The notes below the pieces were generated by a model, which ran no database searches, was not told where the DNA came from, and saw nothing but the letters and a program-made list of their open reading frames with translations. Below are positions 462 through 29,560 of a DNA stretch of 30,462 nt, in pieces. The translations under genes and the position numbers were made by a program. Numbering within the stretch: the stretch's first letter is position 1; each line of letters begins with the position of its first letter. The DNA comes from a virus, in IMG/VR virus record IMGVR_UViG_3300006032_000001, positions 1 to 30,462 of that record. The stretch is one strand, 5' to 3'.

Positions 462-907
462 GTTTCCGACCGGAAACGGCGCATGATATGCCGCCCTCCC
501 ATTCCGCCCATGATGATTGCCGGCACGGTCGCGATTGGAGCGGCGGCGTAATGCGCCATCAGCGCCGCCATGGCGGTGGACAGGATCGCCCTCGCATCGT
601 CCGAGAGAGTCGCTCCAAGACCGGGAGCAAGGCGCTGGGCGAGAAGGGCCGTAACCGGCTCGACCGCGTCATCGGGGATTCCGCTCGGCTCCTCAAGGAG
701 GCCGGCGCCGTAGGTGGGGAACTCATACGCAAGATCGATCCCGCGCTTTGCGAGCAGGGCCATCAAGGCGTTGAGCCTGCGAAGGCCCGCCGTCATTTCC
801 TCGGGGGTGCGCTCGTACTCGAATCCGTTGAGTCCGCAGAGCTCGTAAGCCCCTTCGACGATCGCGCTCTTGGGAACGCCGCTTGCGTCAAGGGTGATGG
901 TCGGCAT
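458..907 (-). CDS. P22 gp4-like head-completion / tail accessory protein
   Basis: This 149-aa protein matches the general layout of P22 gp4 (about 166 aa), which binds below the portal and starts tail assembly after packaging. An N-terminal helix pair carries a Leu-rich AxLRRLNALMALLA stretch. A short linker with an acidic/Pro segment follows, then a long Ala-rich helix (LLAQRLAP...AILSTAMAALMAHYA) that aligns with the gp4 helix containing CRIAPDYAL. The call rests on pattern and context rather than a search. It sits after the lysis genes, not beside coat and gp10 as in P22. A 15-bp repeat lies 32 nt upstream of the ATG. There is no clear Shine-Dalgarno sequence. Confidence 0.6.
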   Translation of the reverse strand: MPTITLDASGVPKSAIVEGAYELCGLNGFEYERTPEEMTAGLRRLNALMALLAKRGIDLAYEFPTYGAGLLEEPSGIPDDAVEPVTALLAQRLAPGLGATLSDDARAILSTAMAALMAHYAAAPIATVPAIIMGGMGGRHIMRRFRSET

Positions 908-939
908 GGGTCAGGTTTTGCCCGCGCACGGCTTATGGT

Positions 940-954
940 GCGATTGAACAGTTC
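940..954 (-). repeat. 15-bp late-operon repeat, copy 1
   Basis: GAACTGTTCAATCGC read on the minus strand, 6 nt after the stop of the Rz-like gene and 32 nt before the start of the gp4-like gene. It is identical to six other copies in the window. Confidence 0.9.
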
Positions 955-960
955 CCGCGG

Positions 961-1560
961 TCAGGGCTTGTCGTTCGGATCGATCGCGATCTGCTTCTCC
1001 GCCCAGCTCTGGAGGTGCATGAGCTGAAGTTCTATTTCTTGGGCTCGCAAAAGCTCTTCGGGAGGAAGTGGCAGTTTGTCGGCGCCATCAGCTCCGCTGG
1101 CGGCGGCTGAAGGCGCGGATGGACGGGCTGGACCGGCTGCACCTGAAGCGGCGGAAGGGGTCTGGCCGCGCACGCCGCCAGCGTGAAGCCGAGCACGATC
1201 GGCAAGATAGGCTTGGCGTTCATCGTCGCTGTTCCTCTGATATTGCTGTTCGACCTTGGCGACCTGAATCTTGTTCGCCGCCGCCGCATCGGACTGTGCC
1301 TTCGCATAGGTTCGGCGATCGGCGAGGCGGCCCGCGCGTTCGCCGCTCAGGGCCTTGACCGTATTGCCGAGCTGGGTTTGCAGCTTGGCGTTGTGGCGGT
1401 GCGCGGCGAGCAGCGCGACATGATCGACGATCAGCGCCAGCGCGAGGGCGATGGCGACGATCTCGCCGGGCGAGCGGCGCGAGAGCCATTGCACGAGGCC
1501 CTGCACGATTGCTTGCGCGGCGGTCAGGCCCAATCTGAGCAAGGCGAACAGCCAGCTCAC
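961..1560 (-). CDS. Rz: Rz-like inner-membrane spanin
   Basis: This 199-aa protein has one membrane segment at about residues 33-53 (Ala/Leu/Ile/Val-rich, preceded by RRSPGE). A long charged helical region follows at about 55-120, then an Ala/Pro/Ser-rich linker and a charged C-terminus. This is the plan of an i-spanin: N-terminal anchor, periplasmic coiled coil, and C-terminus that meets the outer-membrane partner. The identification is strengthened by a second frame inside the gene that encodes a proline-rich lipoprotein, the classic nested Rz1. The pair would fuse inner and outer membranes in the last step of lysis. The start overlaps the stop of the secreted HNH gene. Confidence 0.75.
   Translation of the reverse strand: MSWLFALLRLGLTAAQAIVQGLVQWLSRRSPGEIVAIALALALIVDHVALLAAHRHNAKLQTQLGNTVKALSGERAGRLADRRTYAKAQSDAAAANKIQVAKVEQQYQRNSDDERQAYLADRARLHAGGVRGQTPSAASGAAGPARPSAPSAAASGADGADKLPLPPEELLRAQEIELQLMHLQSWAEKQIAIDPNDKP
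1032..1223 (-). CDS. Rz1: Rz1-like outer-membrane spanin lipoprotein, nested in Rz
   Basis: This 63-aa frame lies wholly inside the Rz-like gene in another frame. From the internal ATG at 1223 it reads MNAKPILPIVLGFTLAAC. That is a basic n-region, a hydrophobic core and a lipobox (LAAC) whose cysteine would be lipidated at about residue 18. The mature part is short and proline-rich (PLPPLQVQPVQPVHP), as is typical of Rz1. Two further cysteines are near the C-terminus. The upstream in-frame ATG at 1307 would add an arginine-rich extension that spoils the signal peptide, so the internal start is preferred. Confidence 0.8.
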   Translation of the reverse strand: MNAKPILPIVLGFTLAACAARPLPPLQVQPVQPVHPRLQPPPAELMAPTNCHFLPKSFCEPKK

Positions 1561-2009
1561 CAGCCGAACCGCTGGCGATAGGCGGCAACCCAGTCGAGCG
1601 AGATTTCCCGCTGCGCCGCAATCAGCGACAGTTTCCTCGCACAGACCATGCGGTGGAGAGCGTTCTCCAGGCGGTCCTTTTGCCGCGCATTGACCGCCCC
1701 GGCATAAGGCTGGAGCCAGAGGTTGACCGGGGCCGAGGGAGCGCCGCCGAGGTCCAGCGGCACGTCATGGTCGAGTTCGTATGCCGGCGCCTGCGAACGC
1801 GGAACCCCGGCCCTCTTCAGGGCTGCAAACTTGAGCTTGTTGGTATAGGCTGCGGTCGGGCGAATGGTCTTCGTCCATCCCGAGACGCAGATGGTGCTGG
1901 CGATATTGGCCTGAGTGACTCGCGGGTTGACCGCTCCGGGCACGGTCGCCCGGCCATCGGCTGACGGCGGCGCTCCGGCGAGCAACGCCACAAGCAAGAG
2001 CCAACTCAC
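1557..2009 (-). CDS. Exported HNH-type nuclease in the lysis cassette
   Basis: The 150-aa protein begins with MSWLLLVALLAGAPPSADG, a likely signal peptide, so it should leave the cytoplasm. The mature part matches a family of small secreted HNH proteins: a TICVSGWTKTIRP block at about residues 40-52, then YELDHDVPLDLGGAPSAP with the DH pair of an HNH site, then NLWLQP with the expected Asn, and a basic helical C-terminus. It lies between a small membrane protein and the spanins and overlaps both by 4 bases. Cleavage of periplasmic or released DNA, or help with DNA entry, are both possible roles. Neither is shown by the sequence. Confidence 0.7.
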   Translation of the reverse strand: MSWLLLVALLAGAPPSADGRATVPGAVNPRVTQANIASTICVSGWTKTIRPTAAYTNKLKFAALKRAGVPRSQAPAYELDHDVPLDLGGAPSAPVNLWLQPYAGAVNARQKDRLENALHRMVCARKLSLIAAQREISLDWVAAYRQRFGW

Positions 2010-2206
2010 GCGAGGTTCCTTCGGTTCGGATAGAGCAACACGCCGTGAGGCTTGTCGAGCGGCCCCGGATGAACCGTGGCGCAGCGCTGATAGTCCGCCT
2101 TCACCAGCGGCAGGGTCTGCGGCGGTTCGGCGGCGACCAGCGCGGCCATGACCATGAGGCTCAGCAGCAGCGTCAAGGTGAGTGCGTCGAGCAGCTTAGG
2201 GAGCAT
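2006..2206 (-). CDS. Small membrane or exported protein (66 aa)
   Basis: From the ATG at 2206 the protein has a strongly hydrophobic N-terminal segment (LLDALTLTLLLSLMVMAALVAA, residues about 5-26). A polar tail of about 40 residues with one cysteine follows. It could be a single-pass inner-membrane protein or a secreted peptide. It overlaps the holin-like gene upstream by 11 nt and the exported HNH gene downstream by 4 nt (ATGA), so it is translated within the lysis block. An accessory lysis role is inferred from position; no family is recognised. Confidence 0.6.
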   Translation of the reverse strand: MLPKLLDALTLTLLLSLMVMAALVAAEPPQTLPLVKADYQRCATVHPGPLDKPHGVLLYPNRRNLA

Positions 2207-2456
2207 CGTCGCCCTTCCCGATTTCCGCCTTGGCGGCTCCGAACTCGACCATGACGCGACCGACATTTTCCGCGCCCACGAGCGCGACGAACAGGCCAAC
2301 GATCCCGCACAGCGCCATGGCGATCCGCGACAGGTCGGGAGCGCTCGCCGAGAGCAATTCGATCAGCCAGCCGAGAAACCCGACCAGCACGAGCACGATG
2401 ACCGCCTGAACCACCGAGCGAAGCGCCCGGCGGGCGTCGGGATTGTTGAGGCTCAT
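2196..2456 (-). CDS. Holin candidate with two membrane segments
   Basis: The 86-aa protein has a basic N-terminus, two predicted membrane helices (about residues 15-35 and 44-66) and a charged C-terminal tail ending in acidic residues. Size and topology fit a class II type holin or a related small phage membrane protein. It starts with ATGA overlapping the endolysin stop, directly downstream of the muramidase gene, the usual holin neighbourhood. A second small membrane protein upstream of the endolysin (3303-3494) is an equally good holin candidate. One may be the holin and the other an antiholin. Confidence 0.55.
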   Translation of the reverse strand: MSLNNPDARRALRSVVQAVIVLVLVGFLGWLIELLSASAPDLSRIAMALCGIVGLFVALVGAENVGRVMVEFGAAKAEIGKGDDAP

Positions 2457-3175
2457 GCCGCCAGTCCCTTGTCGAACTTGGCCGCCGCAGCTTCGAGCCG
2501 CTCGTCGTAGTGGTTCTTCCGGAAACTTGTCCCGTTATACTCGGATGCGACCGTCTGCCACAGGCCGAGGCGAAGCGGCTGAACAATCCCGCTCCTGGTA
2601 ATGAACGCCTCGAACGCGAGCAGCTGCTTGATCTCGTCGTAAGCCTGGCTGAACGCGAACGCCCACGGCGTGTCGTATCCGCAGGCGGCAAAGTTCTCGC
2701 CAAGCAGCTGAAACTTGCCATAGGAGCACGCCTGAAACCCGGCCCACGGGTCGAGCCCGACCGCTTCGAGAAGCTGCGTATAGCGCTCGTCGGTGGATCT
2801 GGGATAGGGTCGCATTCCCCACATCGGATAGCTGACACTCGGGTTCAGCTTGTCGAAGGCGTGCTTGGTCAGCTTGGAAAAGCGGTGCGGCTCGAACAGG
2901 ATTTTGAGGCGCTTGTTGTCGAACCCGGCGCCGTTCGCTTCCACCTCGGCGAAGGCCATGATGGACGACTGCTTGACGTTGAGCCGCTGGGCCGATTCGC
3001 GATAGTTGAGATCGGAGAGATAGGTTTCCGGGCCGTCCTCCATCGCCTCAAGGACCGCCTGCTTGGTCTGCGGTCCATATTGACCATCGACCGCGCCATG
3101 ATAGCGCCCGGTGTTCTTGAGATACATTTGCAGCGAGCGCATCCGGTCTCCGCTCGCGGGGAGAGCCGAGGGCAT
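2453..3175 (-). CDS. Endolysin: peptidoglycan-binding domain plus N-acetylmuramidase
   Basis: The protein is 240 aa from the ATG at 3175. Residues about 12-50 look like a peptidoglycan-binding_1 domain (RSLQMYLKNTGRYHGAVDG...YGPQTKQAV). Residues about 68-235 match the N-acetylmuramidase (DUF3380) family: AFAEVEANGAGFD with the likely catalytic Glu at 77 or 79, ILFEPHRF, an YGKFQLLG block, CGYDTPWAF and a C-terminal YNG motif. It would cut the glycan strand. There is no signal peptide, so it should depend on a holin. The start is supported by a TGATG overlap with a 43-aa ORF upstream. The frame continues further upstream, but those codons belong to that ORF's region. Confidence 0.85.
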   Translation of the reverse strand: MPSALPASGDRMRSLQMYLKNTGRYHGAVDGQYGPQTKQAVLEAMEDGPETYLSDLNYRESAQRLNVKQSSIMAFAEVEANGAGFDNKRLKILFEPHRFSKLTKHAFDKLNPSVSYPMWGMRPYPRSTDERYTQLLEAVGLDPWAGFQACSYGKFQLLGENFAACGYDTPWAFAFSQAYDEIKQLLAFEAFITRSGIVQPLRLGLWQTVASEYNGTSFRKNHYDERLEAAAAKFDKGLAA

Positions 3176-3306
3176 CACTTGATCCTCCGCAGCAGATCGT
3201 CGAAGCTCTTGGGTTCGGGCTCGGGGAACGCGGCGTCGAGCGCGGCCATGAGCTGCGTTCGCCAGTCGCGCGAGCGGAGGTCGATGACGGGCCGCGCCGG
3301 GCTCAT
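3175..3306 (-). CDS. 43-aa coupled ORF before the endolysin
   Basis: Its ATG overlaps the stop of the upstream membrane protein (ATGA), and its TGA overlaps the endolysin ATG (TGATG). The product is soluble and amphipathic (VIDLRSRDWRTQLMAALDAA, then a Pro/Glu stretch and DDLLRRIK). The exact coupling at both ends argues that it is translated. Function is unknown. It could be a lysis regulator or could only carry ribosomes to the endolysin. Confidence 0.55.
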   Translation of the reverse strand: MSPARPVIDLRSRDWRTQLMAALDAAFPEPEPKSFDDLLRRIK

Positions 3307-3494
3307 TCGCCGAGTTTTCTGCGGTTGATGCGGTACTCCTGAACCCCAACGACGATACGGAGCAGGATCAGGAGAAGTGCGGCAACGCCGGTCAGCGCCG
3401 GCAGGAGCTTGAAGAAGTACGCCACGCCCGCCGCTCCGATCGAATAGTCAACGAGATGCTTTCCGGCTTCGGACAAGTGCGGAAGCGGGTTCAT
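3303..3494 (-). CDS. Small membrane protein, second holin candidate (63 aa)
   Basis: The protein has a polar N-terminus, a hydrophobic region at about residues 18-50 (one long or two short helices around LLPALTGVAALLLILLR) and a basic tail (YRINRRKLGE). It resembles small phage holins of the T7 gp17.5 type in size, position and basic C-terminus, though not by any checked alignment. A strong ribosome-binding site (GAGGAGG) sits about 5 nt before the ATG. It is the first gene of the lysis block, followed by a coupled ORF and the endolysin. Confidence 0.6.
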   Translation of the reverse strand: MNPLPHLSEAGKHLVDYSIGAAGVAYFFKLLPALTGVAALLLILLRIVVGVQEYRINRRKLGE

Positions 3495-3504
3495 GCGATC
3501 CTCC

Positions 3505-3915
3505 TCACGCCGTCTTGGTCGCGGTGAAGGTGATGGTCGCGTTGTCGAGGATGACGGTCGGTGCCGAAGTCCGCCGCAGTTCCAGAAGAACAGTGCCGCT
3601 GACCGTGCCGATTGAGGAGGTGAACAACGACCAGCTTCGGTCGCTGCCGAGGTTGAGCCAGGTGCCGAACGTGCCGTTCGGCGGGTCTCCAGTCTCTAAC
3701 GTCGCGCGGACATCGTAATCGCTGGCGGAACCGGACAGCAGCCAGGTGAAACCGGACAGGTTTGTGCCGTCGCCGGTCCCCGCCGCGCGGAGGTTGTAGG
3801 TCGCGCCGACGGCAAAGCCGGTGCCCGATCCGCTGACCGATGCGTCGTCGAGCCGAACGCCATCGGGCGGCGCGGCTTGCCCGAGGGTGGCGGCGAGGCC
3901 GGCAACGCCGCTCAT
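3505..3915 (-). CDS. Beta-rich virion-associated protein, unknown
   Basis: The protein is 136 aa from the ATG at 3915, which overlaps the fibre gene stop (TGATG). It is rich in Gly, Ser and Thr. It has a repeated style (YDVRATLETGDPPNGTFGTW, then WLNLGSDRSW and ILDNATITFTA) seen in small phage proteins that follow fibre genes. No cysteine pair, signal peptide or membrane segment is seen. A fibre accessory or capping role is possible. Confidence 0.55.
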   Translation of the reverse strand: MSGVAGLAATLGQAAPPDGVRLDDASVSGSGTGFAVGATYNLRAAGTGDGTNLSGFTWLLSGSASDYDVRATLETGDPPNGTFGTWLNLGSDRSWSLFTSSIGTVSGTVLLELRRTSAPTVILDNATITFTATKTA

Positions 3916-14255: not shown

Positions 14256-16349
14256 CTAGTGTCTGGTCAGCACGCGGCCGTCGGGGGTCGCGAATACGGC
14301 CCCATGCGGCAGCTTGGCGGCTTGTGCCGCGCTGGTCACGACCACCGGCAGCGCACCGTTGGCGCGGTAGTATTCCAGCGCTGCTGCCTTGGCCCTGGTG
14401 GCCTGTCCAGGCGCGTAGTCATCGACGTTCAAATCCTTGCCGGTACTGTCCTTGTAGGCTTGGATCAGGGGCTGATACCGACCGTAAAGATAATCCACGT
14501 CGGTGGAGAGCGCGGTTTGAATGCCGCCCTTGCCCTTCGAGGGGGAATAGCTGTCGTAATGATCTCTCTGCTCGCCCTCGGTCGGCGCCTTGCCGTTGAG
14601 GAACTTCGGCAGCTCGCTCGCGACAAACTTGCGGCCTTCATTGAATTTGATGAGCCACGGCGCATTGGTCTGCCCCGCAATCCAGCCCGAGAATGCGTTT
14701 TGCGCCCTGGTTGAATGGTCAGGCAGCTCGCGCGCCGCCTGCGCCAGCTCGTACATATGGTTGATGAGCGTTGCCGCGCTCAACATCGAGGCTCCCGGGC
14801 CGGTGTGTCCCGGTGTGTATTGCTGGATTGTCGTTTGGCGGCGCTTGTAGGCTTGCTCGTCGTAACTGGGATCGGCCTGCAAAACGGCAGCGCGAAGTTG
14901 CTGCGCCTGCGGACTGCGAGCGGTCGCGGGAGGATATGCCAGCCGAGTGTCCAAGACGCCCTGCACCTGATTGGCAAGCGACGGATTACGCTTCTGAAGG
15001 TCGGCAATATAGGCTGGACCGGACAGGTCCGCATTCCCCGGCGGCTGTTCGTTCCCCGGCTTCCTCTGGCTGGGAGCGGAATAGACGACGTTTCCGGTAT
15101 TGCCTGGCGGCTGTGCAGCCGGAGCGCCGGGCGCCTGCCCCGTGGCAATCGCCGCATTGCCCGCGTCCCGCGTTGCCCACGCATGGGCGTAGGGAGCCGC
15201 CTTGGGGTTCCTGGCGGCCATGTTCTGGAACGCGGCGTTGGTGATCTCGGCGAATTTCGCGGGATCGCCGCCAGACTGAGCCAGCGCCTTCTTCGCCAGC
15301 GCCGGGGAGCGCACATAGACGTCGAAATACGGCGCCTGAAGGTTCGCCGGCAGCTTCTCGGCTCCCGACTGCGGCCAGTATTTCGCGGCATAGATTTGCG
15401 CCGCCTGATCCTTGGTCAGATTGGCCATCTGGTCAGGCGAGGTGATCCCGAGCTTTGCCAGCTCGGGCTTGTTGGCCGCATAGTTGATGCCGAAGTTGGT
15501 CGGCGCGCCGTTCATGTCGGACGGGTTCAATCCGCCTTCATTGCCGAGGACGTGGGCGACGGAGGCTTGCACGCCGCCCGTCGCTCCACCGCCAGATGCT
15601 GGACCACCTCCTCCCTGTGCTGAGCCGCCGCCAACGGCGACGATCTGCGTAACGGAATTGCCGTTCGCGTCAGTCGTCTGGATTTCCCGGTATTGCGGCG
15701 CATCGGGATCGCGGTAATCGACGACCCATTGCCCATCATCGCCGTAATGTCCGATCGCACGGCCGACGACCTGGCCCTTGCGCCCCTCTCCCGGCATTCC
15801 GAACACGTCGTGGAAGTGGGTCGGGTCGGCCGCATAAATATGCGCTCCGATGAGGCTGGCAGCGGCCTTCTGCTGCGCCGGATCGCCGCTTTCCAGCGAC
15901 TTGACGATATCCTCCTCGCCGGGCGTGACATTGCCCGCCGCCTTGTCCGCCTCGAACCGGGTACGCGCCTGCCTGGCCGCCAAGGTGTAATTGCCAGCCT
16001 GCGCCGGGAAGTAGATTTCCGACAGCGCCGTGAGATTGCTCTGCTTGGTGTCGGCATCGGTCGCGTCGTGGATCGTCTTGAGCGTATCCGTGAACTCGAG
16101 GAACTGCCCCATCAGCTTCGACACGCTGCCCGGCGAGCCGTCCGACTGAGCGAACGCGGTCTGGAACTCCTGCGCGCGGGTCGCCTTCTGCTTGAGCGCC
16201 GCCATCTTCTGCTTGACGGCCTGGTTCTGGAGCTGCTGCGCCTGAAGCTGGGCGCGCTGGGCATCGTCAGCCATCGGGTTCGGCACGAGGCTCTGGGCAT
16301 TGCCGAGGATCGTGGAATAATCGACCGGCTGGGCGGCGAACTCGGCCAT
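14256..16349 (-). CDS. Ejection protein with GH108 muramidase domain (697 aa)
   Basis: The start is the ATG at 16349, overlapping the upstream stop (TGATG). An upstream in-frame start adds a low-complexity Arg/Gly shadow of the previous gene. The N-terminus (about 20-190) is helical and Gln-rich (AQLQAQQLQNQAVKQKM). At about 265-400 there is a glycoside hydrolase 108 type domain: VLGNEGGLNPSDMNGAPTNF, with the catalytic Glu of the EGG motif at about 271, then GIN and an IYAAKYW block. The C-terminus is helical. It is probably ejected into the periplasm to open peptidoglycan for DNA entry, a role given in other phages to lysozyme-bearing internal or tail proteins. Confidence 0.75.
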   Translation of the reverse strand: MAEFAAQPVDYSTILGNAQSLVPNPMADDAQRAQLQAQQLQNQAVKQKMAALKQKATRAQEFQTAFAQSDGSPGSVSKLMGQFLEFTDTLKTIHDATDADTKQSNLTALSEIYFPAQAGNYTLAARQARTRFEADKAAGNVTPGEEDIVKSLESGDPAQQKAAASLIGAHIYAADPTHFHDVFGMPGEGRKGQVVGRAIGHYGDDGQWVVDYRDPDAPQYREIQTTDANGNSVTQIVAVGGGSAQGGGGPASGGGATGGVQASVAHVLGNEGGLNPSDMNGAPTNFGINYAANKPELAKLGITSPDQMANLTKDQAAQIYAAKYWPQSGAEKLPANLQAPYFDVYVRSPALAKKALAQSGGDPAKFAEITNAAFQNMAARNPKAAPYAHAWATRDAGNAAIATGQAPGAPAAQPPGNTGNVVYSAPSQRKPGNEQPPGNADLSGPAYIADLQKRNPSLANQVQGVLDTRLAYPPATARSPQAQQLRAAVLQADPSYDEQAYKRRQTTIQQYTPGHTGPGASMLSAATLINHMYELAQAARELPDHSTRAQNAFSGWIAGQTNAPWLIKFNEGRKFVASELPKFLNGKAPTEGEQRDHYDSYSPSKGKGGIQTALSTDVDYLYGRYQPLIQAYKDSTGKDLNVDDYAPGQATRAKAAALEYYRANGALPVVVTSAAQAAKLPHGAVFATPDGRVLTRH

Positions 16350-17038
16350 CAGAACAGCTGCGACAGGAAGGACGGCATTCCGCCGCCGCCCCCGGCTCCA
16401 CCCATTCCGCCGCCGCCACCCATTCCGCCAGCCACGGCGCTCGCCACCTGATCGAGGAATTGGCCCGTGCTGTTCCACATGCCGGCGGTCAACCCGCCCT
16501 TGCCGAGATAGCCCGACGCCTTGGCGCCGCCGATATTGCTCAGCAGGCTGGTGATGTTGTTGGTTTCCTGCTGGTTGAAGCCGGTGACGCTGTTGGTCGC
16601 GCCCTCGCCGAGGCCGACGAGGCTGCCGAGATTGCCGATCTGGTTCTGGATGACGCTCGACAGCGTATCCCTGCCGAAGTCGGCCAGCGCGCCCTGCGTA
16701 TTGCCGCCGCGGATTCCGCCCGTCGCGGAAGCGTTCTGAAGCACCGCCTCCTGCCCGTTGTTGTAGAGGCTCTGGTAGAGCGGTGAATCCTTGAGCGCGG
16801 CGATCTGCGCTTGCGACGCATCGACGCCCTTCAGTCCGAGCAGGCTTTCGAGCGGATCAAGCGCCGAGGTTCCAGCGCCCATGTATGGAGCGAAGTCGGA
16901 GCGGGCGAGGTCGAACTCGCGATGCTGCTCGCCGATGCCCTTGTTGTAGGCGTCAACCTGGGCATTCGTCGCCTGAGAGATGGCATGTTTCTGTGCGCCG
17001 GCACCGAGCAAGCCGCCGATAAACGAGAAAAGTCCCAA
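16349..17038 (-). CDS. P22 gp7-like ejection protein (229 aa)
   Basis: The likely start is TTG at 17038, preceded at about 9 nt by GGAGGA. The N-terminus MGLFSFIGGLLGAGAQ is hydrophobic and glycine-rich. The middle (about 80-160) has SLYNNGQEAVLQNASATGG and IRGGNTQGALADFGRD, a pattern shared by small phage DNA-transfer proteins. The end is an unusually glycine-rich tail (GGMGGGGGMGGAGG) before PSFLSQLF. It lies between portal and the muramidase ejection protein and overlaps the latter by one base. Expected to be packed in the virion and released into the cell. Confidence 0.65.
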   Translation of the reverse strand: MGLFSFIGGLLGAGAQKHAISQATNAQVDAYNKGIGEQHREFDLARSDFAPYMGAGTSALDPLESLLGLKGVDASQAQIAALKDSPLYQSLYNNGQEAVLQNASATGGIRGGNTQGALADFGRDTLSSVIQNQIGNLGSLVGLGEGATNSVTGFNQQETNNITSLLSNIGGAKASGYLGKGGLTAGMWNSTGQFLDQVASAVAGGMGGGGGMGGAGGGGGMPSFLSQLF

Positions 17039-21671: not shown

Positions 21672-21748
21672 TACGCCACCTTGACCGGGGAATAGTCGCG
21701 GATCGCCGCTGCCACAGCCTCACAGGCGCCGTTGTGTGCAGCACTCAT
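21671..21748 (-). CDS. 25-aa coupled micro-ORF between HNH and terS
   Basis: The frame starts at an ATG overlapping the HNH stop (TGATG) and ends in a TAA overlapping the terS start (TAATG). The predicted peptide is MSAAHNGACEAVAAAIRDYS plus a short tail, mildly helical with one Cys. Perfect coupling on both sides suggests translation. It may be a leader that feeds ribosomes to terS, or a functional peptide. Confidence 0.45.
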   Translation of the reverse strand: MSAAHNGACEAVAAAIRDYSPVKVA

Positions 21749-22029
21749 CACACTCGCTCCAACGTCAGGCTCTCAAGCCGACAGCGGGCGGCGCTCGGCT
21801 TGGTCTCGGCAATCATCCCGCGCTCACTGTTGCATTGCTCATGGGCGAGGCGGAGATTGGCCAGCTCGTTTCCGCCGCCACGGGCTTTCGGAATGGCGTG
21901 ATCGATCGTCGCCCGGCCCTTGCCGTTGCCCTGATGGAAGCCGTCGTGACACAGCCAGCAGCGAAAGCCGTCGCGGCGCGTGATCGCCCGGATGCGCCAG
22001 TTGCGGATTCGAGACGTTCCCCAGGACAC
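21748..22029 (-). CDS. HNH endonuclease next to terminase
   Basis: The protein is 93 aa from the GTG at 22029, chosen because GGGAGGG lies about 8 nt upstream. The longer frame would read through the 15-bp repeat and its neighbouring gene. Motifs are FRCWLCHDGF at about 22-31, IDHAIPKARGG at about 41-51, and NLRLAHEQCNSERG at about 57-70, which together form an HNH nuclease site. Small HNH proteins beside terminase assist cleavage or packaging in HK97-type phages. This one may do the same, or be a mobile nuclease. Confidence 0.85.
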   Translation of the reverse strand: MSWGTSRIRNWRIRAITRRDGFRCWLCHDGFHQGNGKGRATIDHAIPKARGGGNELANLRLAHEQCNSERGMIAETKPSAARCRLESLTLERV

Positions 22030-22060
22030 TGATCCACCCTCCCATTTTCCCCGGTCATCA

Positions 22061-22075
22061 GCGATTGAACAGTTC
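22061..22075 (-). repeat. 15-bp late-operon repeat, copy 7
   Basis: GAACTGTTCAATCGC on the minus strand. Its first two bases overlap the TGA of the upstream HTH gene, and it lies 31 nt before the HNH start. It is the first copy in the late region, at the early/late boundary. Confidence 0.9.
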
Positions 22076-22382
22076 ACGGCGCTTCGCTCGGATTGATGAT
22101 CCAGATCGACGCATCGCGGACGGTCCAGCCGAGCATGTTCATGCGCCGCCATACCGAGCGCTCGGTCCGGTCCATCAGGATCGCGATCTGCTTGGGCTTC
22201 TTGCCGTTGAGCAGGTGACGACGAAGCCGGAGCAGGTCGGCAGTCGACCAGTGCCAGCGTTCGAACTTGCGTTCCGAGCCTCTGAGAGCGCGCTCCAGGC
22301 GCAGGGTTTCGAGCGGAGTCAGCTCGCGGGTGCGGCTGAGCGCGTCGAGCCGTTCAAGCGTCGATTTGAACTCCCTCCCCAT
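22074..22382 (-). CDS. HTH protein at the early/late boundary (102 aa)
   Basis: The C-terminal half has LRRHLLNGKKPKQIAILMDRTERSVWRRMNMLGW (about 52-86, in two overlapping stretches), a helix-turn-helix resembling GcrA-like or sigma region-4-like domains. The N-terminal half is charged and helical (ETLRLERALRGSERKFERWHW). GGGGAGGGG lies just before the ATG. As the last early gene before the terminase block it is a good candidate for a late-gene activator or antiterminator. This is a positional inference. Confidence 0.6.
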   Translation of the reverse strand: MGREFKSTLERLDALSRTRELTPLETLRLERALRGSERKFERWHWSTADLLRLRRHLLNGKKPKQIAILMDRTERSVWRRMNMLGWTVRDASIWIINPSEAP

Positions 22383-23541: not shown

Positions 23542-23822
23542 GCCGGGCACCCGAGCAGGATTCCGCGCTTCTCAAGCTCGGCCAGCAACTCGCTGGTCCG
23601 GAACCGGTCGAGACTGCGCGACGGGTCGAGCGCAACAATCGTCCGGGCCTTGCAGGGCAAGTAGCGGACATAGCCGCGTTCGCTCAGTGACGTGACCAGC
23701 GCGTTGATCCGGCTCTTGCTCGAAACCCCCATCGCCGCCGCCATTTCGGCATAGCTTGGCGAGCGCTCGCAGCTCTGGATGAAGCGCCACAGCTGCTCCT
23801 GCTTTTCAGTCAGAGGAATCAT
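23538..23822 (-). CDS. Stand-alone LexA-type winged-helix regulator (94 aa)
   Basis: Residues about 1-63 follow the LexA N-terminal domain: LTEKQEQLWRFIQS, a PSYAEMAAAMGVSSKSRINA recognition region, then LVTSLSERGYVRYLPCKART. There is no S24 peptidase domain, so it cannot be inactivated by RecA-type self-cleavage. The C-terminal 30 residues are a charged helix. It is coupled to the HNH-AP2 gene upstream and the initiator downstream by 4-base overlaps. It could block or mimic host LexA, or act as an early/late switch. LexA half-sites of the GAAC/GTTC type resemble the palindromic core of the 15-bp repeat. Confidence 0.7.
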   Translation of the reverse strand: MIPLTEKQEQLWRFIQSCERSPSYAEMAAAMGVSSKSRINALVTSLSERGYVRYLPCKARTIVALDPSRSLDRFRTSELLAELEKRGILLGCPA

Positions 23823-24364
23823 GCCGCTTGGCGGCCGTGGTTTGGGTGAAATCCAAGCTTTCGCTCGGCTTCCTTACGAGCGGCTATTGCGCCTTCGATC
23901 GTCTCAAAGGAGCCCAGACAGAATTTGGTGCCACGATGATTTATCCCTGCAACGTAGCGCCCCGTGTCCTTCCTAAACCCCACGCCGATATGGCCTGAAG
24001 TGTTGCGGCTAGAAATCGCTTGATTAGTCGAGTTGCCCGTCCAGTCGGTCGCGCGAAGGTTGGTCCACCGATTGTCGGAGCGATCGCCGTTTATATGGTC
24101 AATCACCGTTGGCTCATCGCCCGTCATCAATTTCCAGATGACTCGGTGCGCCCTGCGCGTCGCCCCGAGCATCTTGGCACTCAGATAGCCGGCGTTGTCG
24201 ATGACCTTCCACGGCTTGCCAGCCATCTTGGAGTTCCACGCCCGTTGAGTACGGACGCGCTTGAACATGGATAGGGGGCGCTCTTTCCAACGCAGCTCGC
24301 CAGTTTCTGAATTATAATCGAGCAGTTGCCGCAGCTGATCCTGCCCAGGCAGTGGACACCTCAT
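23819..24364 (-). CDS. HNH-AP2 homing endonuclease
   Basis: This 181-aa protein has the HNH_3 plus AP2 plan. At about 70-104 it has RRAHRVIWKLMTG and then VIDHINGDRSDNRWTNLR (DH and Asn residues of the nuclease site). At about 119-172 it has SRNTSGHIGVGFRKDTGRYV and LGSFETIEGAIAARKEAE, an AP2 DNA-binding domain. It is a free-standing mobile endonuclease, not in an intron, joined to its neighbours by ATGA overlaps. Such genes spread by cutting related phages that lack them. Somewhat lower GC than flanking genes fits acquisition. Confidence 0.88.
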   Translation of the reverse strand: MRCPLPGQDQLRQLLDYNSETGELRWKERPLSMFKRVRTQRAWNSKMAGKPWKVIDNAGYLSAKMLGATRRAHRVIWKLMTGDEPTVIDHINGDRSDNRWTNLRATDWTGNSTNQAISSRNTSGHIGVGFRKDTGRYVAGINHRGTKFCLGSFETIEGAIAARKEAERKLGFHPNHGRQAA

Positions 24365-28477: not shown

Positions 28478-29204
28478 TCTACTGCTGATGGAGCAGGGCC
28501 TTGAAGCCGACCGCGAGCTTGTCCGCTCCCTAGTGGAGTGGACCCGCCTTGCGCCGAGCAGGGTGGCGGCTGAATCCGGGCTTGCCGCAACCACCCTGAC
28601 GCGCCCGCTCAAGGGCACCGCGACGACGCGGATCAGCCGGCCAACGCTCGACAAGCTGCGCGAGCGCTTTCCCGATTTCCCCGGATGGATCGAACACAGC
28701 GGCCATGTGCGCTCGGAGCTGGCGGGCTTTGGGGATCGGCCGTTTGATGAGCAATATGGTTCGGCCGACCTGAAGCGGATTCCCGTGCTCGGCTCGGCTA
28801 TCGCTATCGAGGCGTTCGATCCTGAGCGGCACATCGAGTTGACCGAAGTGGACACGGGAGACGTACTCGACACCGTGGCGCGACCGACGAGCCTTGCGCG
28901 GGACAAGGAAGCCTATGCGCTAACCGTCGTTGGCGATTCGATGTGGCCTCGCTTTCGCCCCGGCCGGCGCGTCATTGTGAGCCCGCGAGCGCCGGTATCG
29001 ATCGGCGATGATGTGATTGTCCAGCTGCGCGGCGCGGAGGGCGATCCCGATTATCGGGAGCGCATTGCCCTGGTGCTCGTCAAGGAGCTGGTCAGGCGCA
29101 CTTCGACCTATGTCGAGCTGCGGCAGTTTAACCCGGACGTGACATTTCGGGTGGAAACCGAGCGCGTTGCGAAAATTCATAAGGTGATTGGGGAGGTGTT
29201 CTGA
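28467..29204 (+). CDS. CI-like prophage repressor with S24 peptidase domain
   Basis: The protein is about 245 aa from the ATG at 28467; ATGs at 28422 and 28488 are alternatives and none has a clear ribosome-binding site. The N-terminal HTH has SRVAAESGLAATTLTRPLKG. The C-terminal S24 domain has ALTVVGDSMWPRFRPG with the catalytic Ser (about 158) and ALVLVKELVRRT with the Lys (about 206). The linker region IPVLGSAIAIEA shows no Ala-Gly or Cys-Gly scissile pair, so self-cleavage is doubtful. It is divergent from the Cro-like gene and coupled to an exported protein by TGATG. It should hold the prophage silent through the 16-bp operators. Confidence 0.82.
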   Translation: MSANLLLMEQGLEADRELVRSLVEWTRLAPSRVAAESGLAATTLTRPLKGTATTRISRPTLDKLRERFPDFPGWIEHSGHVRSELAGFGDRPFDEQYGSADLKRIPVLGSAIAIEAFDPERHIELTEVDTGDVLDTVARPTSLARDKEAYALTVVGDSMWPRFRPGRRVIVSPRAPVSIGDDVIVQLRGAEGDPDYRERIALVLVKELVRRTSTYVELRQFNPDVTFRVETERVAKIHKVIGEVF

Positions 29205-29560
29205 TGCTATTTGCCTTAGCGCTGTTAGCAGCGCAGCCCAACCAAGCGAAAATGGCGACTATGACGGCGGAAACACCGCGTCATCCTGACCAGATTTACG
29301 GCTTCCCCGATTCCGATTCATGCGGAACGTGGACCAGATATCGTGCGGACAAGACTAGCCAGATGTTGGAGGGTTGGGTGCTTGGTTTCGTCAGTGGACG
29401 GAATGCGTTCGGAGCCGGGAACGGCGATCTCGCTCCGGGCGTCAAAGCGGAGGGACTGCTCGGATGGATCGACCAATATTGCACTGCAAATCCGCTCGAC
29501 AGCGTTTCGGCGGCCGGGTTCAGACTGGTGGACGAGCTACAAAAGCGGGCTAAGCGCTAG
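29204..29560 (+). CDS. Exported protein coupled to the repressor; Rap1a/Tai-like pattern (118 aa)
   Basis: The start overlaps the repressor stop (TGATG), so it should be made in lysogens. It begins with a short signal-like segment (MLFALALLAAQPNQA). The mature part has SCGTWTRYRADKTSQMLEGW, then VLGFVSGRNAF and GWIDQYCTANPLDSVSAAGF near the C-terminus. The two cysteines may form a disulfide. The Cys-Trp/Gly-Phe-x-x-Gly/Tyr-Cys-x-x-x-Pro spacing recalls the Rap1a/Tai immunity fold, but this is pattern-based. Superinfection exclusion or lysogenic conversion is a reasonable hypothesis. Confidence 0.55.
   Translation: MLFALALLAAQPNQAKMATMTAETPRHPDQIYGFPDSDSCGTWTRYRADKTSQMLEGWVLGFVSGRNAFGAGNGDLAPGVKAEGLLGWIDQYCTANPLDSVSAAGFRLVDELQKRAKR

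Follow-up and report, generated by a model that had tools for sequence, protein, structure and literature searches.

The window, by which we mean the whole stretch of DNA analysed here, is a virus record of 30,462 bases (IMG/VR IMGVR_UViG_3300006032_000001), and a portal match to PF16510 (E 3e-122) places it among the P22-like phages. Isolate relatives of its terminase and endolysin are distant, the best-listed endolysin match being that of Caulobacter phage Seuss (48%). The phage is probably temperate, because the window carries an S24-type repressor-like gene; the end of this gene is overlapped by the start of another, at 29204-29560, for a small protein with a hydrophobic leader and no Pfam match. 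On the minus strand, genes for an endolysin, a holin-like protein, a 66-aa protein, a nuclease and the spanin pair Rz/Rz1 follow one another in this order, so that the parts of a Gram-negative lysis cassette, namely endolysin, holin-like protein, i-spanin and o-spanin, lie in one operon. The features to which the text refers are listed below, related records being designated by L and a number.

2453..3178, minus strand: endolysin with a peptidoglycan-binding domain and an N-acetylmuramidase domain (PF11860, E 7.7e-38; PF01471, E 1.1e-6; PHROG endolysin, E 5.5e-51)
2196..2456, minus strand: holin-like protein of 86 aa with hydrophobic segments, called from phrog_785 holin (E 0.04) and from its position
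2006..2206, minus strand: 66-aa protein with a single hydrophobic N-terminal segment (12/24 identity to a 58-aa protein in the same place in L169)
1557..2009, minus strand: gene with a GTG start for a probably exported, likely HNH-type nuclease of 150 aa, as judged from relatives, predicted fold and invariant residues
1953..2009, minus strand: hydrophobic leader and probable signal peptide of the nuclease, residues 1-19, with a possible cut after ADG
1722..1778, minus strand: putative catalytic motif E78-x-D80-H81 ... G88G89 ... N96, from invariance and predicted strands and helix
961..1560, minus strand: Rz-like i-spanin of 199 aa (weak match to phrog_2466; homologues in L169, L170, L171, L002 and L013)
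1546..1560, minus strand: start of Rz, GTGAGCTGGCT..., similar to the nuclease start (12 of 15 bases the same as 2009-1995)
1032..1223, minus strand: Rz1-like o-spanin lipoprotein, encoded within Rz in a different frame and recognised by identity to the Rz1 of L002 and L169
28422..29204: S24-type repressor-like gene

The open reading frame at 1557-2009 had been picked out from the letters alone as a secreted HNH nuclease gene locked by 4-base overlaps into a lysis cassette, and its coordinates, its strand and the locking all proved right. Three of the four operon junctions are 4-base overlaps (ATGA, GTGA, GTGA): ATGA joins the endolysin and holin-like genes at 2453-2456, one GTGA joins the 66-aa gene, which ends at 2006, to the nuclease gene at 2006-2009, and the other joins the nuclease gene to Rz, which starts at 1560, at 1557-1560. 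The holin-like and 66-aa genes overlap by 11 bases. The start of the nuclease gene is well fixed, because GTG at 2009 is the first ATG, GTG or TTG past the preceding stop in its frame. The GTGA overlaps on either side leave no room for a promoter of its own, and a scan of 900-3600, which covers sigma-70-like sites only, returned no promoter-like or terminator-like site. Since the nuclease and Rz starts are so similar, an inserted gene perhaps took over the start of Rz. The holin is the weakest call among the operon parts in view of its phrog_785 match, and it has no viral relative among the records searched. The spanins next to the nuclease gene are real, as had been supposed: the embedded Rz1 shares 51% identity with the Rz1 of L002 and 66% with the Rz1 of L169, and Rz homologues occur in five relatives. 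Remote from the operon, at 14256-16478, lies the gene for a GH108-domain protein of 740 aa that is probably a peptidoglycan hydrolase carried by the virion.

The HNH residues noted in the original prediction are borne out by conservation. In an alignment of 162 rows, comprising the window, 81 viral and 80 cellular loci, E78, D80, H81, G88, G89, N96, K111 and E115 are identical throughout (162/162), and so are R50, K60, C41, C123 and W140. Among six aligned plasmid relatives, D replaces N96 in two (L008 and L012). N106, a possible third HNH position after N96, is variable, with G in 49 and N in 28 of the 82 viral rows. The set of D80, H81 and N96 corresponds to that of active HNH nucleases, Cas9 among them. 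The family is under purifying selection, with a median dN/dS of 0.12 and a maximum of 0.21 (92 pairs in 8 viral clusters).

These residues fall on a predicted beta-beta-alpha core. The fold alignment comprised 61 sequences, namely the window protein and 60 of the 76 representative loci, after removal of five plasmid loci and of 11 whose C-termini were long or carried extensions, and the AlphaFold2 model built on it has a mean pLDDT of 90.2 and a pTM of 0.80. Its core consists of strands at 77-81 and 97-101 and a helix at 108-123; D80-H81 is placed on the first strand, N96 just ahead of the second and K111 on the helix, which is the arrangement of the HNH superfamily (D-H on strand 1, N before or on strand 2).

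Searches with the window protein alone against Pfam, PHROGs and NCBIfam matched no curated nuclease family and no HNH model, and PDB sequences gave nothing usable; a match to eIF2_C (E 0.049) was taken as chance. For PF01844, PF14279, PF13395 and PF13930 the window protein is likewise without a match, and the 61 family members give weak matches only: Endonuclea_NS_2 in 21 (best E 1.7e-4; where bits are given, 18.2 and 17.7 against a curated cut-off of 27), HNH_5 in nine and a PHROG HNH family in 28. Two ordinary HNH genes lie in the other half of the window and are recognised by Pfam, one as PF13392 (HNH_3) at 23819-24364 and one as PF01844 (HNH) at 21748-22152. The family profile has a single match among PDB sequences, to the pyocin AP41 DNase (E 0.47), the alignment covering E..H....GG....NL. 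Foldseek found no significant match for the window protein model in the PDB, and a second structural comparison listed mostly HNH/beta-beta-alpha-metal nucleases, each of them weak: Gme HNH nickase (Z 4.5, the best), I-F HNH (3.6), Sda1 (3.6), EndoG (3.0), pyocin AP41 (2.9), Serratia nuclease (2.6) and colicin E9 (2.4), together with several Cas9 proteins. Among the predicted structures of BFVD there are three significant matches, two of which, from uncultured phages, are named HNHc domain (E 1.4e-8 and 2.1e-8). Motif, fold and family matches combined make an HNH-type nuclease likely; none of the relatives found is a family member with a known function.

The proposed signal peptide stood up in part. 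A hydrophobic core and an A-D-G site can be seen in the leader of the window protein (MSWLLLVALLAGAPPSADG), and relatives have ordinary leaders, but the window leader has no basic residue in its n-region. In the model, pLDDT is 63 and 52 in the first two ten-residue blocks, and residues 1-20 lie outside the confident domain. A hydrophobic-core test was passed by 77 of the 81 viral relatives and 59 of the 80 cellular loci against 29 of 235 other open reading frames, a comparison that tilts to the nuclease in that any start 12-90 residues upstream was allowed for it and the first start was used for the background; two viral and six cellular loci without a recognisable anchor motif were scored as misses. 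All four viral misses have leaders visible by eye, one of them being cut at a contig end. A lipobox-like site is seen in three viral and six cellular members. Because relatives have ordinary leaders, the nuclease of the window is read as probably exported. The conserved region has exactly two cysteines in 153 of the 162 rows and more in the other nine, and the invariance of C41 and C123 fits a disulfide formed outside the cytoplasm.

Relatives of the nuclease were found in 53 plasmid records, at least 540 genome stretches and 215 viral stretches, of which 81 (the best 80 and L006) make up the 82 viral rows together with the window. The original prediction regarded a nuclease as unusual in a lysis cassette. 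The gene does lie inside a lysis operon, but it is no isolated oddity, as the family repeatedly adjoins endolysins, holins and spanins. The distance from nuclease to endolysin is at most 1.5 kb in 44 of the 82 viral rows (48 within 3 kb), and in none of the 80 cellular and none of the six plasmid loci. Per 10 kb, endolysins number 1.87 in the first 1.5 kb and 0.18, 0.37 and 0.06 in the three shells that follow. The endolysin seeds were all confirmed by Pfam or PHROGs except one GH104-like seed. As these seeds were drawn from the same neighbourhoods and favour the viral over the cellular set, whole contigs were also counted with Pfam, using 44 cluster representatives of the 82 rows and six Pfam families chosen after the neighbourhoods had been seen. 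By this count, 16 of 25 endolysin-family matches, three of them below the cut-off, lie within 1.5 kb of the nuclease, against 3.55 expected from uniform placing (P ~ 6e-10, an optimistic value because the rows are related by descent and not independent); on contigs of at least 25 kb the figures are 13 of 20 against 1.65. The muramidase of the window was excluded from this count, and its virion GH108 protein was counted as a miss.

The nearby endolysins are of nine types (muramidase, GH108, GH24, GH19, M15, glucosaminidase, CHAP, amidase and M23), so that it is the partners that vary and the nuclease that persists. For 38 of the 82 viral rows the search saw no endolysin within 1.5 kb; some of these rows are on short contigs or may carry endolysin types outside the search, and several family members adjoin unrelated genes. 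Moreover, the family occurs commonly on plasmids and in cellular genomes, away from lysis genes, and its general function is therefore not lysis. C-terminal DUF3761 is fused in four of the ten extended cellular members scanned (L154, L156, L161 and L094, from actinobacterial and other genomes), and an MG2-like C-terminal domain in one of the ten. In the tree, where few branches are firm, lysis-linked members are mostly in viral clades close to the window, which groups with L002 and L013 (SH-aLRT 88, a branch not among the firm ones). The lysis-linked L040 falls, with weak support, within a clade of mostly cellular members, and this may point to the family having been recruited more than once. 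A holin-like 82-aa protein of L040 (6387-6635) matches phrog_26427, named 'nuclease'; we regard this as a matter of naming, as the label may derive from the neighbouring nuclease gene. Five family members had no match in 50,697 INPHARED phage records, and this search therefore brought up no isolate of known host.

The place of the nuclease can be compared across seven records that share a homologous Rz, namely the window, L169, L170, L171, L172, L002 and L013, the match of L172 covering the first 68 residues only. The P22-like L169 has an Rz 49% identical to that of the window, and there a probable homologue of the 66-aa protein runs straight into Rz with the same kind of 4-base overlap. The nuclease is absent from the 44.6-kb contig of L169, which is thus an empty version of the nuclease site, and also from the contigs of L170, L171 and L172. 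In L002 and L013, whose contigs have no P22-type portal, the nuclease is followed by a secreted trypsin-like protease and then by Rz. These proteases match phrog_9683 (E 6e-15 and 6e-4), and Trypsin_2 is above the cut-off in L002 and below it in L013. L171 has a trypsin-like protein without the nuclease (Trypsin_2 E 5.7e-5, below the cut-off), with an exported DUF1996 protein upstream; the latter (1670-3124, E 2.9e-33) has a GH24 endolysin on one side and a membrane protein on the other. L170 and L172 have in the same slot an exported protein with an HExxH...H motif, a putative metalloprotease that matches no protease family, that of L172 having a weak match to eCIS_core. The proteins found just before Rz in relatives are as follows.

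L002 5389-5976, L013 6703-7317 and L171 3319-3888: exported trypsin-like serine proteases with His and Gly-x-Ser-Gly-Gly motifs
L170 3269-3703 and L172 3566-3922: exported HExxH...H proteins, putative metalloproteases

Scans for further proteases in this slot returned only contigs already known. The nuclease gene is thus an optional cassette, absent or replaced by other exported hydrolases in relatives, and the arrangements of these six relatives indicate that these phages keep exchanging exported hydrolases or hydrolase-like proteins between holin and spanin. We tentatively propose, while giving the proposal somewhat less than an even chance, that the lysis operons of some phages contain, between holin and Rz/Rz1, an exchangeable place for exported hydrolases (nuclease, trypsin-like protease and putative HExxH metalloprotease, alone or together), which would be stored in the periplasm, would condition the lysate and would form a further lysis class beside holin, endolysin and spanin.

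For the window protein itself, the best reading, in which we place moderate confidence, is that of a Sec-exported, disulfide-bonded HNH nuclease that is stored in the periplasm and cuts the DNA freed at lysis. It would be produced late from the lysis operon through translational coupling and, as its leader and its relatives suggest, exported by Sec, the phage DNA remaining safe in the cytoplasm and in capsids. A periplasmic disulfide, for which the invariant C41 and C123 are the candidates, would finish the enzyme. Once the cell is opened by holin, endolysin and spanins, the nuclease kept in the periplasm would, to judge from the position of its gene, cut the freed chromosome, and from this we infer a benefit to the phage: cleavage would thin the lysate, free virions and perhaps remove DNA that binds or competes. 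Three roles had originally been offered, namely degradation of DNA released on lysis, removal of competing phage DNA in the periplasm and action on a periplasmic target, and the first fits best, since the gene sits in a late operon and is swapped for secreted proteases in relatives.

An alternative, unlikely but the best of those considered, is that the gene is cargo for the benefit of the lysogen (a moron), whose secreted nuclease helps the living lysogen, for example in feeding on extracellular DNA, its operon position being a tolerated landing place. The repressor-like gene, which suggests a temperate phage, and the wide occurrence of the family in free-living bacteria and on plasmids agree with this, and secreted phage DNases tied to host benefit are known from streptococcal prophages (PMC4710455). 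Such cargo is difficult to reconcile with GTGA overlaps on both sides, where no promoter of its own was found or has room, and with an endolysin link that recurs across all nine endolysin types. It is quite improbable that the nuclease instead acts in the periplasm against competitors by cutting incoming DNA of other phages (superinfection exclusion): an exported nuclease would be expected to reside there, but production from a late operon would restrict its action to the end of the cycle, and a protease and a putative metalloprotease as swap partners do not suggest DNA exclusion. Indeed, because the swap partners are proteases, general digestion of lysis products is favoured over a DNA-specific role against competing phages. 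We give equally little credence to an inactive or repurposed HNH fold serving as an exported binding or lysis-timing factor, for which the lack of conservation at N106 might speak, since the other likely catalytic positions, including D80, H81 and N96, are invariant in all rows. Least credible of all is a protein that is not exported and acts in the cytoplasm, its leader being an uncleaved anchor or part of the fold; the missing basic n-region would suit it, but the model gives residues 1-20 low confidence and sets them outside the confident domain, relatives have ordinary leaders or lipoboxes, and two cysteines are invariant.

Among known systems, the window protein has its closest analogues in Spd1, Spd3 and Sda1 of streptococcal prophages, which are phage-encoded secreted nucleases, as is proposed for the window protein. 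Streptococcal prophage DNases are of the HNH/beta-beta-alpha-metal type. Sda1 is a weak structural match, and in the PDB sequence set none of the three matches the window protein or the family profile. Their hosts are Gram-positive, and the window gene differs in lying inside an overlapping lysis operon between holin and spanins. With colicin E9, pyocin AP41 and Gme HNH nickase the window protein has the predicted HNH core in common, a likeness at the superfamily level only; colicin and pyocin DNases and HNH nickases are bacteriocin cargo or intracellular enzymes. Serratia nuclease, which is exported, is linked to the family by the weak Endonuclea_NS_2 and structural matches given above and is larger (241 residues in the listed chain against 150 aa). 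Compared with the canonical Gram-negative lysis cassette, of which holin, endolysin and Rz/Rz1 are all present and overlapping in the window, an exported nuclease is built in as an extra, and in relatives an exported protease. Phage-borne secreted nucleases are already known; what appears to be new is an unnamed HNH family and its placement inside a lysis operon. Among the papers listed in searches of the open-access PMC literature, none deals with this nuclease family or with a nuclease inside a holin-spanin operon.

Phage lysis has been described as the breaching of three envelope layers, and the DNA freed in this process, being sticky and viscous, can retain virions. The recurrence of the nuclease beside lysis genes in many uncultured phages suggests that, in some of them, the DNA set free is digested while the cell is being opened. 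If nucleases and proteases are indeed exported from lysis operons, lysis would include the processing of released material, with effects on burst size, plaque spread, the DNA available for transformation and for biofilms, and what becomes of dissolved DNA in the environment, and a large uncharacterised protein family would gain a function-rich hypothesis.
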